From contig LR778135.1 of assembly GCA_902810075.1 (NCBI GenBank), positions 2,604,001-2,668,000 on the forward strand: a stretch of DNA of 64,000 nt. Direction: 5' to 3'. A model generated the notes under the pieces. The model was not told the DNA's origin. It saw only the letters and a list, made by a program, of their open reading frames with translations, and ran no database searches. Of the stretch, positions 49,291 through 53,994 are shown in pieces; position 1 is the stretch's first letter, and each line of letters begins with the position of its first letter. This stretch comes from Ruminococcaceae bacterium BL-6. GTDB lineage: Bacteria > Bacillota > Clostridia > Oscillospirales > Acutalibacteraceae. The position numbers and the translations under genes were made by a program.

Positions 49291-49432
49291 GAGAAAAATT
49301 TAACACGTCCTGCTGGCGATGCCGCGGAAACCCGGCCGCCGCTTTTCAAGGGACGGAAGCGCAGAAACGTTTTTTCCGTTCCTCGGAAATGCCGCTAAAA
49401 AATTTGCTCGTGTAGAACCGGGGATTTTGTAG

Positions 49433-49571
49433 TATAATAACCTCACGGCGGTAAACGGAAGCAAAGCTTCCGGCGCCTGGGAGAGCATTGAACCATGATG
49501 AGCTTTGCGGGGTCGGAAATTTTCCTGGAAAGATAACCGCTCTGCTTTGCAATCGTGTTATAATAACCTCA
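49433..49571 (+). repeat. Structured repeat element upstream of ldh (single copy)
   Basis: The element begins and ends with the same 13 bases, TATAATAACCTCA (49433-49445 and 49559-49571). Inside, GGAAGC-AAA-GCTTCC forms a hairpin within an outer GGCG/CGCC pairing. It aligns over its length with the minus strand upstream of degV (51951-52322). The hairpin there is GGAGGC-AAA-GCCTCC, a paired change that keeps the stem. The element lies directly before ldh in the same direction, and either TATAAT could be a -10 box. Confidence 0.75.
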
Positions 49572-49596: not shown

Positions 49597-50550
49597 ATGC
49601 CGAATGATAATCGTAAAATCGTTCTGGTGGGAACCGGATTCGTGGGCATGAGCTTTGCCTATGCGCTTCTGAACCAGAATGCGTGCGACGAGCTGGTGCT
49701 GATCGACCTGGACACGCGCCGCGCCGAGGGCGAAGCGATGGACCTGAACCACGGGCTGGCGTTTTCCGGCTCGCATATGAAAATCCACGCCGGGTCTTAC
49801 CGCGACTGCAAAGACGCGGACATCGTCGCGATCTGCGCCGGGGTCGCGCAGAAGCCCGGCGAAAGCCGCATCGACCTTCTTCAGCGCAACACCGCCGTGT
49901 TCCGCTCCATCATCGGCCCGGTCACGGATTCGGGGTTCCGGGGGATTTTCCTGATTGCGACCAACCCGGTCGACATTATGGCGCACGTGACCCAGCGGCT
50001 TTCCGGCTTCGACCACCGCCGCGTCATCGGCACCGGCACCGCGCTGGACACCGCGCGCCTGCGCTATATGCTGGGCAGCTATTTCGGCGTCGACCCCCGC
50101 AACGTGCACGCCTATGTGATGGGCGAGCACGGGGACAGCGAATTCGTGCCGTGGTCTCAGGCGCTGATCGCGACAAAGCCGATCCTGACCATCTGTAAGG
50201 AATCGGGCGACCGGTACTGCCTCGGCCACCTGAAATCCATCAGCGAAGAGGTCAAAAACGCCGCCCAGAAGATCATCGCGGCCAAAAAGGCGACCTATTA
50301 CGGCATCGGCATGGCGATGGTGCGCATCGCAAAGGCGATTCTGGGCAACGAAAGCAGCGTCCTTACGGTTTCCATGCTGCTGCAGGGTGAATACGGGCAG
50401 ACGGACGTCTACGCCGGGGTGCCCTGCGTCGTGGGGCGGGACGGCGTTTCCGGCATCCTCACCCTTTCCCTGACAGAAAAAGAGCTTGATCAGCTCAAGC
50501 TCTCCTGCGATCTGCTGAAGAAGTCCTTCAGCGGGATTCAGTTTTCCTGA
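49597..50550 (+). CDS. ldh: L-lactate dehydrogenase
   Basis: The 317-residue protein has the NAD motif VLVGTGFVGMSFAYAL, the substrate region ATNPVDIM and the active-site GEHGDSEFVPWS with its His. It interconverts pyruvate and L-lactate with NADH. ATG at 49597 has AGGGGG upstream. Its leader is the structured repeat. No clear Rex site was seen. It converges with ridA, six bases apart. Confidence 0.93.
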   Translation: MPNDNRKIVLVGTGFVGMSFAYALLNQNACDELVLIDLDTRRAEGEAMDLNHGLAFSGSHMKIHAGSYRDCKDADIVAICAGVAQKPGESRIDLLQRNTAVFRSIIGPVTDSGFRGIFLIATNPVDIMAHVTQRLSGFDHRRVIGTGTALDTARLRYMLGSYFGVDPRNVHAYVMGEHGDSEFVPWSQALIATKPILTICKESGDRYCLGHLKSISEEVKNAAQKIIAAKKATYYGIGMAMVRIAKAILGNESSVLTVSMLLQGEYGQTDVYAGVPCVVGRDGVSGILTLSLTEKELDQLKLSCDLLKKSFSGIQFS

Positions 50551-50968: not shown

Positions 50969-51841
50969 TTAGTTTTCACTCGCCCAAAAGGATACCGCCA
51001 GCATGCCCGGCCCCACATGGCAGCCGATCACCGGCCCGATATCGCACAGAATGATTTCTTTCGGGTGAAACCTTTCTTTCACGTCATGCCTCAGCTTTTT
51101 CGCATCTTTCTCGCTGTTCCCGTGGCCGATCAGCACCGTCTGCTCGCCGGGGTTGATGCACGTTTCCGCCATTTTTTCCACCAGGGCCTCCATCGACTTT
51201 TTGCGGCCCCGCATCCTCATGGCAGGGACAAGGGCGCCCTCGCTGTCCACATGGAGGATGGGCTTGATGCCGAGCGCGGAGCCGGCGACCGCCGCGACGG
51301 ATGAGATCCTGCCGCCGCGCCGCAGGTATTTCAGGTCGTCCACAGTAAACCACTGGCCGATGTGGTAATGGCTGCCGTTGCCCCAGCGGACCACTTCGTC
51401 CATCGCCGCGCCCCGCTCTTTTTCCCTCGCCGCCAGCAGGACGAACAGGCCCTGACCGATGGAGGCGCAGCGGGAATCGAGGCACACGATGCGCGATTCG
51501 GGATATTTCTCCTGAAGGCCGGCCGCCGCGATCAGCGACGACTGATAGGTTCCGCTCAGGGCGGAGGAAAAGGCGAGGTACAGGACATCCTGCCCCGCCT
51601 GAAGCACCGGTTCAAAATAATGCGTATACGTAACCCCGTTGATCTGCGAGGTGGACGCCGTTTCGCCCGCCTGCATGCGTTCGTAAAACGTCTGGACGGG
51701 AAGCTCCCTCGCATCCGGGTAATGGTGATACAGCGTGCCGCCGATCTGGAACTCCATCGGGATCACGCGGACATCCAGCTTTTCCAGCACATCCGCGGGA
51801 AGGTCACAGGTGGCATCGGTCATCAGAACATAATCTCTCAA
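50969..51841 (-). CDS. DegV-family fatty-acid-binding protein
   Basis: The 290-residue protein has the DegV start YVLMTDATCDLPADVL, TSQINGVTYTHYF near the lipid site, LAFSSALSGTYQSS and the late IGPVIGCHVGPGMLAVSFW. DegV proteins present fatty acids to FakA kinases. The TTG at 51841 is chosen because GGAGGAG lies nine bases upstream and the protein then begins at the domain; an ATG at 51907 has no ribosome site. Its transcript begins far upstream and contains the four tandem structured repeats. Confidence 0.85.
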   Translation of the reverse strand: MRDYVLMTDATCDLPADVLEKLDVRVIPMEFQIGGTLYHHYPDARELPVQTFYERMQAGETASTSQINGVTYTHYFEPVLQAGQDVLYLAFSSALSGTYQSSLIAAAGLQEKYPESRIVCLDSRCASIGQGLFVLLAAREKERGAAMDEVVRWGNGSHYHIGQWFTVDDLKYLRRGGRISSVAAVAGSALGIKPILHVDSEGALVPAMRMRGRKKSMEALVEKMAETCINPGEQTVLIGHGNSEKDAKKLRHDVKERFHPKEIILCDIGPVIGCHVGPGMLAVSFWASEN

Positions 51842-51950
51842 TCGGTCTTTCTCCTCCGGGATTGGAACATCTGCGCTTGCCGCGATATTCCTGCATTTTT
51901 CGATCATCCCAAATTTTCCGAACCTATAAAAAACTCACAAATTATTTTTA

Positions 51951-52322
51951 ATTATACCATGATTGCAAAGCAGAATGGAGCAATTTTGCGGAGAAGTTTC
52001 CGAACACGCAAAGCTCATGGTTCAATGTTCTCTCAGGCGTCGGAGGCTTTGCCTCCGCTTACGCCGTGAGGTTATCTATCACATGCCGCAGAGCGGCATG
52101 TTTCAATGTTCTCTCAGGCGTCGGAGGCTTTGCCCCCGCTTACGCCGTGAGGTTATCTATCACATGCCGCAGAGCGGCATGTTTCAATGTTCTCTCAGGC
52201 GTCGGAGGCTTTGCCTCCGCTTACGCCGTGAGGTTATCTATCACATGCCGCAGAGCGGCATGTTTCAATGTTCTCTCAGGCGTCGGAGGCTTTGCCTCCG
52301 CTTACGCCGTGAGGTTATTATA
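51951..52322 (-). repeat. Structured leader of degV: four tandem 81-bp units plus one unique end
   Basis: Core copies of 55 bases start at 52021, 52102, 52183 and 52264, exactly 81 apart. Three identical 26-base linkers separate them, each with the perfect hairpin CATGCCGC-AGA-GCGGCATG. Each core on the minus strand reads AACCTCACGGCGTAAGC, then GGAGGC-AAA-GCCTCC, then GACGCC and GAGAGAACATTGAA. Copy 2 has one base change in the stem. The part 51951-52020 matches the second half of the ldh element. The whole lies between the degV promoter and the degV start. Confidence 0.85.
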
Positions 52323-52345
52323 TCTTAATGCGGATCGTTTGACAA
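52317..52345 (-). promoter_or_regulatory. Promoter of the degV leader
   Basis: On the minus strand TTGTCA (52345-52340), exactly 17 bases, then TATAAT (52322-52317). The TATAAT is the outer edge of the last repeat unit; the inner units carry GATAGAT instead, so only this copy keeps a full -10 box. Confidence 0.8.
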
Positions 52346-52458
52346 GTCGGATTTCCGCGAAATTTGCAGATAACCCGCGCTTCCCGGCGCTTTGCCGCGA
52401 AACGCGATATCTGTATACGGCCTTTTTGCCCGCATTACTTTTCTCCGGGGGGAACGGA

Positions 52459-53994
52459 ATGAAAAAATTACTGAAACAGCTGCTGAGCAGAACTTTTCTG
52501 ATGGTGCTGGCCATTCTGGCCCAGGTCGCCGTGCTGATCCTGATGATTCTGGAATTCAGCTCTTATTTTGTCGGGTTTTACGCGGTCTGCACCCTGGGCA
52601 GCCTGGTGGCGGTGCTCTGGATCGTCAACAGCGAGCGCAACCCGGCCTATAAGCTCGCGTGGGTCATTCCGATCATGCTTTTCCCCATTTTCGGCGGGCT
52701 GTTTTTTCTGCTGTTCGGCACCAACAAATCGAACCGGAAAATCCGGCGCAGCGTCCAGATTTCCCGGCAGAACTACCGCAGCTATCTGAAGCAGGACCCA
52801 TCCGTTCTCGACGAAATTCATTCGCTCAGCCGGGACGCCTGCGCCCAGGCGCTGTACCTTCAGCGGTATTCCTGCTGCCCGGTATGCCGGAACAGCTCGT
52901 CGGTGTTCCTGCCGGACGGAGAGGCCAAATTCGCCGCGCTGAAAGAAGAACTGCAGAAAGCAGAGCATTTTATTTTTCTGGAGTATTTCATCATTCAGGA
53001 CGGCGTGATGTGGGACACAGTCCTGAGCATCCTGGAAAAAAAGGCGAAGCAGGGCGTGGACGTGCGCGTGCTGTACGACGACATGGGCTGCCTGTTCACG
53101 CTGCCGTTCCGCTACAACCGCACTCTGGAGCAGAAGGGGATCCAGTGCTGCGTGTTCAACGCGTTCGTCCCGTTCCTCTCCACGCTGATGAACAACCGCG
53201 ACCACCGGAAAATCGCCGTGATCGACGGGCACACGGCGTTTACCGGCGGAATCAACCTGGCGGATGAATACATCAACCTCTACCCGAAGCACGGCCACTG
53301 GAAAGACGCCTCCATCCTCATCCGCGGCGAGGCGGTCTGGAACTTTACCGTGATGTTCCTTTCCCAGTGGGATTCCGTGCGCCACATCACCGAGGATTTC
53401 GAGCAGTACCGCCCGCACATGCACCATTTGAAGCCGTTCGAGTCGGACGGCTTTGTGCTGCCGTACAGCGACAATCCGCTGGACTGGGAGGCGGTGGGCG
53501 AAAACGCCTATCTGAATCTGATCAACCGCGCGGAACGGTACGTCTTCATCAACACGCCGTACCTGATCCTGGACAACGAAATGACCACCGCGCTGTGCAA
53601 CGCGGCCAAGGGCGGGATCGACGTGCGCATCGTGACGCCCCACATCCCCGACAAGCGGTTCGTGTACGCCGTCACCCGCGCGAACTATGCGGCGCTGGTG
53701 AAAAGCGGCGTAAAAATCTACGAGTATCTGCCCGGCTTCAACCACGCCAAAACCGTGGTGTGCGACGACGAATACGCGATCGTCGGCACGATCAATTTTG
53801 ATTTCCGAAGCTTTTATATGCACTTTGAATGCGCCGCATGGCTGTACCGCGCAAGCTCCATCCTGGATATCCGGGAGGATTTCATCAAAACGCTCGAGGT
53901 GTGCCACCAGGTGATGCTTTCGGAATGCCGGAACGGAAAATGGTTCGAGCGGCTGGGCAGCTTTATTCTGCGCATCCTCTCTCCCCTTTTATAA
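52459..53994 (+). CDS. cls: Cardiolipin synthase
   Basis: The 511-residue phospholipase D-family protein has two N-terminal membrane helices and two HKD motifs: NNRDHRKIAVIDGHTAFTGG near residue 250 and NHAKTVVCDDEYAIVGTINF near 432. It joins phosphatidylglycerol molecules into cardiolipin. ATG at 52459 with GGGGGGAAC upstream is the start; an open frame extends back through the tandem repeats only because 81 is a multiple of three. Confidence 0.93.
   Translation: MKKLLKQLLSRTFLMVLAILAQVAVLILMILEFSSYFVGFYAVCTLGSLVAVLWIVNSERNPAYKLAWVIPIMLFPIFGGLFFLLFGTNKSNRKIRRSVQISRQNYRSYLKQDPSVLDEIHSLSRDACAQALYLQRYSCCPVCRNSSSVFLPDGEAKFAALKEELQKAEHFIFLEYFIIQDGVMWDTVLSILEKKAKQGVDVRVLYDDMGCLFTLPFRYNRTLEQKGIQCCVFNAFVPFLSTLMNNRDHRKIAVIDGHTAFTGGINLADEYINLYPKHGHWKDASILIRGEAVWNFTVMFLSQWDSVRHITEDFEQYRPHMHHLKPFESDGFVLPYSDNPLDWEAVGENAYLNLINRAERYVFINTPYLILDNEMTTALCNAAKGGIDVRIVTPHIPDKRFVYAVTRANYAALVKSGVKIYEYLPGFNHAKTVVCDDEYAIVGTINFDFRSFYMHFECAAWLYRASSILDIREDFIKTLEVCHQVMLSECRNGKWFERLGSFILRILSPLL

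Follow-up and report, generated by a model that had tools for sequence, protein, structure and literature searches.

A tandem repeat array upstream of degV belongs to a dispersed palindromic repeat family seated directly behind promoter −10 boxes

Introduction

In Ruminococcaceae bacterium BL-6, the degV gene is preceded by four nearly identical structured units that lie between a promoter and the start codon. What are these units, and why do they stand there? The window analysed here is a 64,000-nucleotide stretch of contig LR778135.1. A preliminary description of it proposed that the units are transcribed as a leader of about 465 nt, and that they form either a ligand- or protein-binding RNA, multiplied for a sharper response, or an unstable repeat that carries a promoter. 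Our preferred reading, to which we assign a probability of roughly 0.7, is that a palindromic repeat, non-autonomous and of the insertion type, is present in the array four times over, and that it lands at the 3′ edge of sigma-A-type −10 hexamers.

Results

The array and the promoter upstream of degV

The four tandem 81-bp units of the preliminary description are real, as TRF (52016-52318, period 81, 3.7 copies, 98% matches), a direct-repeat search (copy spacings of 81 and 81 bp) and our covariance model R1 (four copies, all on the minus strand) agree on them (Table 1). The single base change reported among the copies affects copy 3, counting from the promoter, and lies in its stem. Three linker hairpins were recovered as well, each with the hairpin-forming sequence ACATGCCGC-AGA-GCGGCATGT. 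The promoter TTGTCA-N17-TATAAT (52345-52317, minus strand) matches the consensus at 11 of 12 positions, and the same arrangement was read in three sister genomes of the genus (G001, G002 and G003). Because the TTG at 51841 is the likeliest degV start, the leader, counted from the predicted transcription start to this codon, has a predicted length of ~470 nt, close to the earlier estimate. One 81-bp unit folds with a z-score of −4.7, which was equalled by 0 of 200 shuffles, and the whole leader folds at −10.4, partly owing to copy-copy pairing. A terminator scan of 51700-52700 returned no site. The repeat also stands, in two copies, before another degV-family gene of this genome (L055:2864-3733).

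Table 1. Positions of the degV array, its promoter and neighbouring features in the window.
Feature	Position	Strand	Basis or remark
−35 box TTGTCA, degV promoter	52340..52345	−	position kept in G001, G002 and G003
−10 box TATAAT, degV promoter	52317..52322	−	repeat copy 1 starts right after it
Repeat copy 1, degV array	52256..52327	−	R1 match; takes in the −10 box and preceding bases
Linker hairpin 1, degV array	52243..52263	−	direct-repeat search; overlaps the end of copy 1
Repeat copy 2, degV array	52175..52245	−	R1 match
Linker hairpin 2, degV array	52162..52182	−	direct-repeat search
Repeat copy 3, degV array	52094..52164	−	R1 match; single stem base change
Linker hairpin 3, degV array	52081..52101	−	direct-repeat search
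Repeat copy 4, degV array	52013..52083	−	R1 match
Long terminal segment of copy 4, degV array	51957..52020	−	bounded by ACCATG / CATGGT
TATAAT at right end of degV array (TGGTATAAT), possible second promoter	51951..51956	−	read from sequence
degV, TTG start	50969..51841	−	gene caller; Pfam DegV, 258 bits
ldh-like gene	49597..50550	+	Pfam Ldh_1_N, Ldh_1_C
Single repeat copy upstream of ldh	49428..49500	+	R1 match; directly behind the ldh −10 box

The units belong to a dispersed repeat family

A 141-base query returned at least 75 matches in the same 3.44-Mb genome (best 40 of 57 candidates scored). When 36 stretches around own-genome matches (209 kb) were scanned with a one-sequence profile, 95 matches in 43 groups were obtained. 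The covariance model R1 (72 positions, 16 pairs) was built from 74 copies of four genomes. At E 0.01, it found at least 98 matches in the own genome and at least 38, 69 and 85 in the three same-genus genomes; these counts are lower bounds, as the best 150 of 1505-1913 candidates were scored per genome. A survey of the family gave an R1 match in at least 36 of 300 genomes and at least 24 of 135 genera (E 1e-5; 16 candidates scored each), and a sample of the order in at least 15 of 394 genomes, eight of them outside the family (E 1e-6; 12 candidates scored each). An earlier sequence query had matched 5 of 79 relatives, all but one within the genus. The covariance-model search of related genomes that the preliminary description had suggested thus yielded matches in three sisters and in other genera. 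The degV array consists of members of a dispersed repeat family and is not a degV-specific riboswitch. The notion of a ligand-binding RNA special to degV is not supported; the element precedes many unrelated genes.

With a 72-position core, units of 68-129 bp and many copies, the family shares with MITEs that its members are short, dispersed and non-autonomous. As for possible terminal inverted repeats, the left end reads AACC by eye, and some right ends read only GGTT or GGTTAT. The copies differ chiefly in the segment between the cores, which is of three kinds: a short hairpin (68-71-bp units), a CATGCC hairpin as in degV (77-82-bp units) and a long segment (125-129-bp units).

The predicted stem of the repeat is well supported by compensatory change. 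Among 74 distinct copies, 97.3% of the cells were paired, both sides had changed at 8 of the 16 pairs, and 115 cells were double-changed compared to a shuffled mean of 34.5. Slid versions of the structure paired in 28-45% of cells, a comparison in which R1 is favoured, as its structure was derived from the same sequences. The impression that the tandem leader fits no recognised riboswitch class was borne out, as no Rfam family reached its gathering score anywhere in the window. In nine loci of related genomes, the cut-off likewise left no Rfam class, riboswitches included, and at E 0.1 only an unrelated miRNA model appeared, away from the repeat. The Gut-1 RNA (RF01706) scored 26.7 and 17.6 bits against a gathering score of 50. 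Its UGAAA-hairpin-UGA pattern resembles the 81-bp linkers (52067-52270, minus strand), but it fits these linkers and not the conserved stem of the repeat.

First copies almost always follow an exact TATAAT directly

The position of the repeat relative to promoters was surveyed in 102 arrays from 93 loci of 14 genomes, the loci being picked for high scores. In 96 of these 102 arrays, an exact TATAAT stands immediately before the first copy. Of the six arrays without such a call, L153 was anchored wrongly and does read TATAAT as well, and L236 runs into the end of its contig. Internal copies directly followed an exact TATAAT in 67 of 139 cases, the other junctions reading TTAAAT, TATAGA, TTGAAT and the like. 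The search model includes the TATAAT columns, yet these internal copies, which lack TATAAT, were returned by the same search.

Removal of near-identical flanks, and of flanks lacking TATAAT, left 89 first flanks. TGN precedes TATAAT in 75 of them (TG at −15/−14), and TRTGN in 51. Matches to TTGACA averaged 2.54 at a spacer of 17, compared to 1.54 at other spacers (maximum 1.82). This mean was reached by 0 of 2000 within-flank shuffles, and 22 of the 89 flanks had at least four matches. Beyond these promoter motifs, the columns showed no strong consensus, and the flanks were locus-specific. With predicted transcription starts, the 5′ end fell at most 2 nt before the hairpin in 91 of 97 elements, compared to 42 of 110 control TATAAT sites. 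The first 50 nt of the predicted transcripts had a median folding energy of −18 kcal/mol for elements and −8 kcal/mol for the control sites. As the promoter stays intact and the repeat adjoins its 3′ side, the repeat would become the first part of the mRNA.

Arrays face genes of many pathways

Genes were called by codon usage with a simple program. The gene next downstream pointed the same way as the array in 40 of the 42 own-genome arrays, in 32 of the 33 sister arrays with a called gene (34 examined) and in 21 of the 22 such arrays in other genera (26 examined). One array in this survey overlaps a called gene. The own-genome genes upstream of the arrays were evenly oriented (20 to 20; 2 uncalled). 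L041 and L061, which had been called antisense, are followed by sense genes with the Pfam domains PrpR_N and polysaccharide deacetylase; these calls were caller errors, and a sense gene lies ahead of all 42 own-genome arrays, as shown by the caller for 40 and by Pfam for the other two. A repeat found at random places unrelated to gene starts had been named as the outcome that would speak against a leader. The sites found here are many, and nearly all of them are promoters.

This orientation bears on the possibility that the repeat inserts at any TATAAT and is restricted to sense promoters only through loss of copies elsewhere. We consider this a real possibility, albeit one with less than even odds. 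Within 265 kb of this genome, TATAAT free of the element is itself sense-intergenic in 58 of 100 cases, and element-free TGNTATAAT in 18 of 25, and in nested arrays an element-borne TATAAT suffices as neighbour. Nevertheless, the 40 of 42 sense arrays exceed both backgrounds (Fisher P 6e-6 and 0.011, the second background being small). Moreover, antisense intergenic TATAAT (14 of 100) should be a harmless target, yet both antisense-called arrays face sense genes. Copy loss elsewhere, taken as the sole cause, therefore explains the sense-promoter pattern poorly.

The downstream genes (20 own-genome genes with Pfam assignments, plus degV and ldh) belong to many pathways, with no evident common one. 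They include an arginase-family gene, RuvC, Dus, YfhO, a glutamyl-type tRNA synthetase, a nitroreductase, AzlC, an aldolase, trigger factor, NusB, an rRNA methylase and a malic enzyme, among others.

Some promoters occur without the repeat in sister genomes

For six own-genome sites, the corresponding regions of the three sisters were compared and rescanned by profile. The arginase-family gene is preceded by eight copies here; none of the three sisters had a match, and TATAAT was kept in all of them. At the ldh promoter, where a single copy is present here, all three sisters were again without a match at this place. G002 shows GTAGTATAAT there, resembling the left flank of the own copy, and G001 and G003 show TATACT. 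Weak traces facing the divergent gene (8.1 bits in G001, 28.4 bits in G003) were detected on the other strand of the ldh intergenic region. A promoter without the repeat is shown most firmly at the arginase-family gene and ldh.

The remaining sites are more varied. The ruvC promoter has the same TATAAT in all genomes, followed by two copies here, by none in G003, by six R1 matches in G002, and by another palindromic repeat and a 13-bit trace in G001. The degV leader of G002 is short and plain and gave no repeat match. G003 has a decayed copy deeper in the leader, in degV sense (13.2 bits), followed by TCTGTTATAATAAC, and G001 showed similar traces by eye, with no clear match. The decayed G003 copy suggests that the element may be old at degV and that G002 may have lost it, which makes degV a less clear instance of insertion. 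At the YfhO gene, all four genomes have the element or what is left of it (a single copy in each of two, four R1 matches in one, a remnant in one), which indicates that much of the repeat family is inherited. At dusB, the sister arrays face a divergent gene, and the site comparison is not interpretable. Two G003 sites were also looked up in its closer relative G001, where one holds a remnant and the other has lost the promoter. The degV leaders of G001 and G003 (L182 and L184) contain long palindrome-rich inserts directly behind the −10 box, with a recurring CAGGCT..AGCCTG / CGCACA motif that is also present after truncated copies in G002 (L141 and L142).

The family is thus dispersed, seated behind TATAAT and gene-facing, and its copy number varies between orthologous sites. 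A functional cis-regulatory RNA leader, ligand- or protein-binding, acting regulon-wide and in tandem for a sharper response, would account for the compensatory changes that maintain the stem, for the strong conservation of unpaired bases such as GAACATTGAA, for the placement of nearly all arrays in sense 5′ leaders and for the sites common to all four genomes. It is at odds with the lack of an evident common pathway among the downstream genes, the same promoters being without the element in sisters, the lack of an Rfam family at the cut-off and the occupation of the same seat by an unrelated repeat, designated type B. We regard such a leader as quite improbable.

Array length changes, and right ends often read TATAAT

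The arrays contain 1 to 11 copies. The part of the preliminary description that called the repeat unstable is upheld at another locus: a contig of the viral collection (L121), a close relative of the own L046 locus, has one copy where four are present here. The added L046 copies carry another stem variant. More than one stem variant was present in 21 of 24 multi-copy own-genome arrays. The type B repeat, an unrelated palindrome, takes the same TATAAT seat and nests with the degV-type repeat at L045, L047 and L050. The added L046 copies, the mixed stem variants and the type B nesting fit repeated insertion better than slippage alone.

The other part of that proposal, a repeat that carries a promoter, is reversed for the promoter in front of the repeat at two sites, the arginase-family gene and ldh, as the sisters have this promoter and lack the element. 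A mobile promoter, i.e., a repeat that spreads by bringing a promoter to genes, seems as doubtful to us as the regulatory leader. The right ends of own arrays do read exact TATAAT in 16 of 42 cases and deviate by one base in 7 more (random stretches, 0.9% exact), and TGNTATAAT is present at many internal junctions, so that a second, element-borne promoter is conceivable. However, the left promoter flanks are locus-specific and the promoter is present without the repeat in sisters. The left hexamer is exact in 41 of 42 own arrays, which, compared to the right one, gives it the look of a maintained promoter. In addition, the internal junctions of the degV array are TATAGA-like and not TATAAT. 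TATAAT flanks many arrays on both sides, as a target duplication might, although the right junctions were not cleanly readable. The junctions of G002 arrays read TTTAAAT or AAAAT, and the right-end hexamer therefore looks element-borne.

Type B, in which TATAAT is followed by AGCCGC..GGCTATTATACC, also occurs at the ruvC promoter of G001 (L197). There, its inverted arm copies the flanking TTATGG, as if the palindrome extended into the flank. At L047, the nesting order is B-A-B, and the inner arm of type B matches the TATCAT variant of the hexamer.

Discussion

In the preferred reading, insertion behind the −10 hexamer, copies would arrive at TATAAT, and right ends that read TATAAT may let further copies land head to tail; recombination and repeated insertion could thus both lengthen the arrays. 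With both the −35 and −10 boxes intact, insertion would probably be tolerated and the host gene would stay on. The mRNA would then start one or two bases ahead of a stable hairpin. A 5′-terminal hairpin can protect mRNA in Gram-positive bacteria. The hairpin, if it acts at all, would most likely influence how stable the 5′ end of the mRNA is, rather than serve as a ligand switch.

As a rule, insertion elements land in the gaps between genes and thereby spare them. A base-precise landing behind the −10 box, with the promoter still working and the element forming the first hairpin of the transcript, would be unusual in a compact genome. It would also raise the question of whether open promoter complexes can be recognised by a transposition system. 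We find it rather unlikely, if less so than the leader or the mobile promoter, that the repeat is transposable DNA homing to the melted −10 region of active promoters, its enzyme recognising TATAAT where the open complex exposes the non-template strand and inserting behind it. Such homing would be a promoter-preserving insertion strategy of at least two unrelated palindromic repeat families, and it would give dozens of mRNAs of one genome a 5′-terminal hairpin. The sites also offer naturally occurring promoters that have a 5′-terminal hairpin, in 1 to 11 copies, or lack one, for tests of what such hairpins do to mRNA stability.

The repeat is of a known kind, the small structured interspersed repeats, some of which are modular like BOX and some of which have promoters, according to the accessible parts of the cited papers. 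The BOX elements of Streptococcus pneumoniae are small, interspersed, RNA-structured repeats built of modules, the inner ones being tandem and variable in number (PMC3049150). The likeness to the present repeat is in this modular design, with BOX taken from its description, and extends to the low-GC Gram-positive host, the strain-variable length and the lack of a transposase of its own in the part of the description available (PMC3049150). BOX differs in its reported terminal inverted repeats and target duplications, neither of which is plainly evident here, and a seat directly behind the −10 box is not described for it in that part (PMC3049150). Correia elements are promoter-carrying MITEs, and one of them, a single case in the available portion of the paper, lies just downstream of the mtrCDE promoter (PMC10969869). 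BrickBuilt is a MITE with a tandem array that expands and contracts (PMC4596501). As far as these excerpts go, both resemble the present repeat as short, non-autonomous intergenic repeats with sigma-70-like promoter sequences in or beside them (PMC10969869, PMC4596501); they differ in that the repeat here sits behind a promoter that is present without it in sisters. A literature search of partial coverage found neither the repeat family nor insertion behind −10 boxes.

Possible mobilisers were also considered, and no enzyme that would move the repeat was found. IS200/IS605-type ends, REP/REPIN and related palindromic elements have end hairpins, orientation-specific insertion behind a short target and a target-like right end, and the present repeat is alike in these respects. 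It differs in that its left hairpin starts at most 3 nt from the junction and in that G002 and G003 yielded no Y1 transposase; two broken matches were found in G001. A guide pairing between AACAT of the element and ATGTT of the flank was rejected, as its variable base was without covariation (C-A 14 times, C-G once). Plasmid records gave no repeat match, a second pattern scan of the viral collection found nothing, and the one match in phage records (34 bases, 88%, E 0.04) was taken as chance. At 15 Y1 loci, the model of the repeat core gave only matches with E above 3. The resident IS200 was dismissed as the mobiliser of the repeat, as ends and target differ in its 11 identical copies. These IS200-like copies (L067-L077 on contig C1 of the own genome, G000) are ~600 bp long, encode a 154-residue Y1 transposase and have a TTTAT-type target; they have apparently spread recently.
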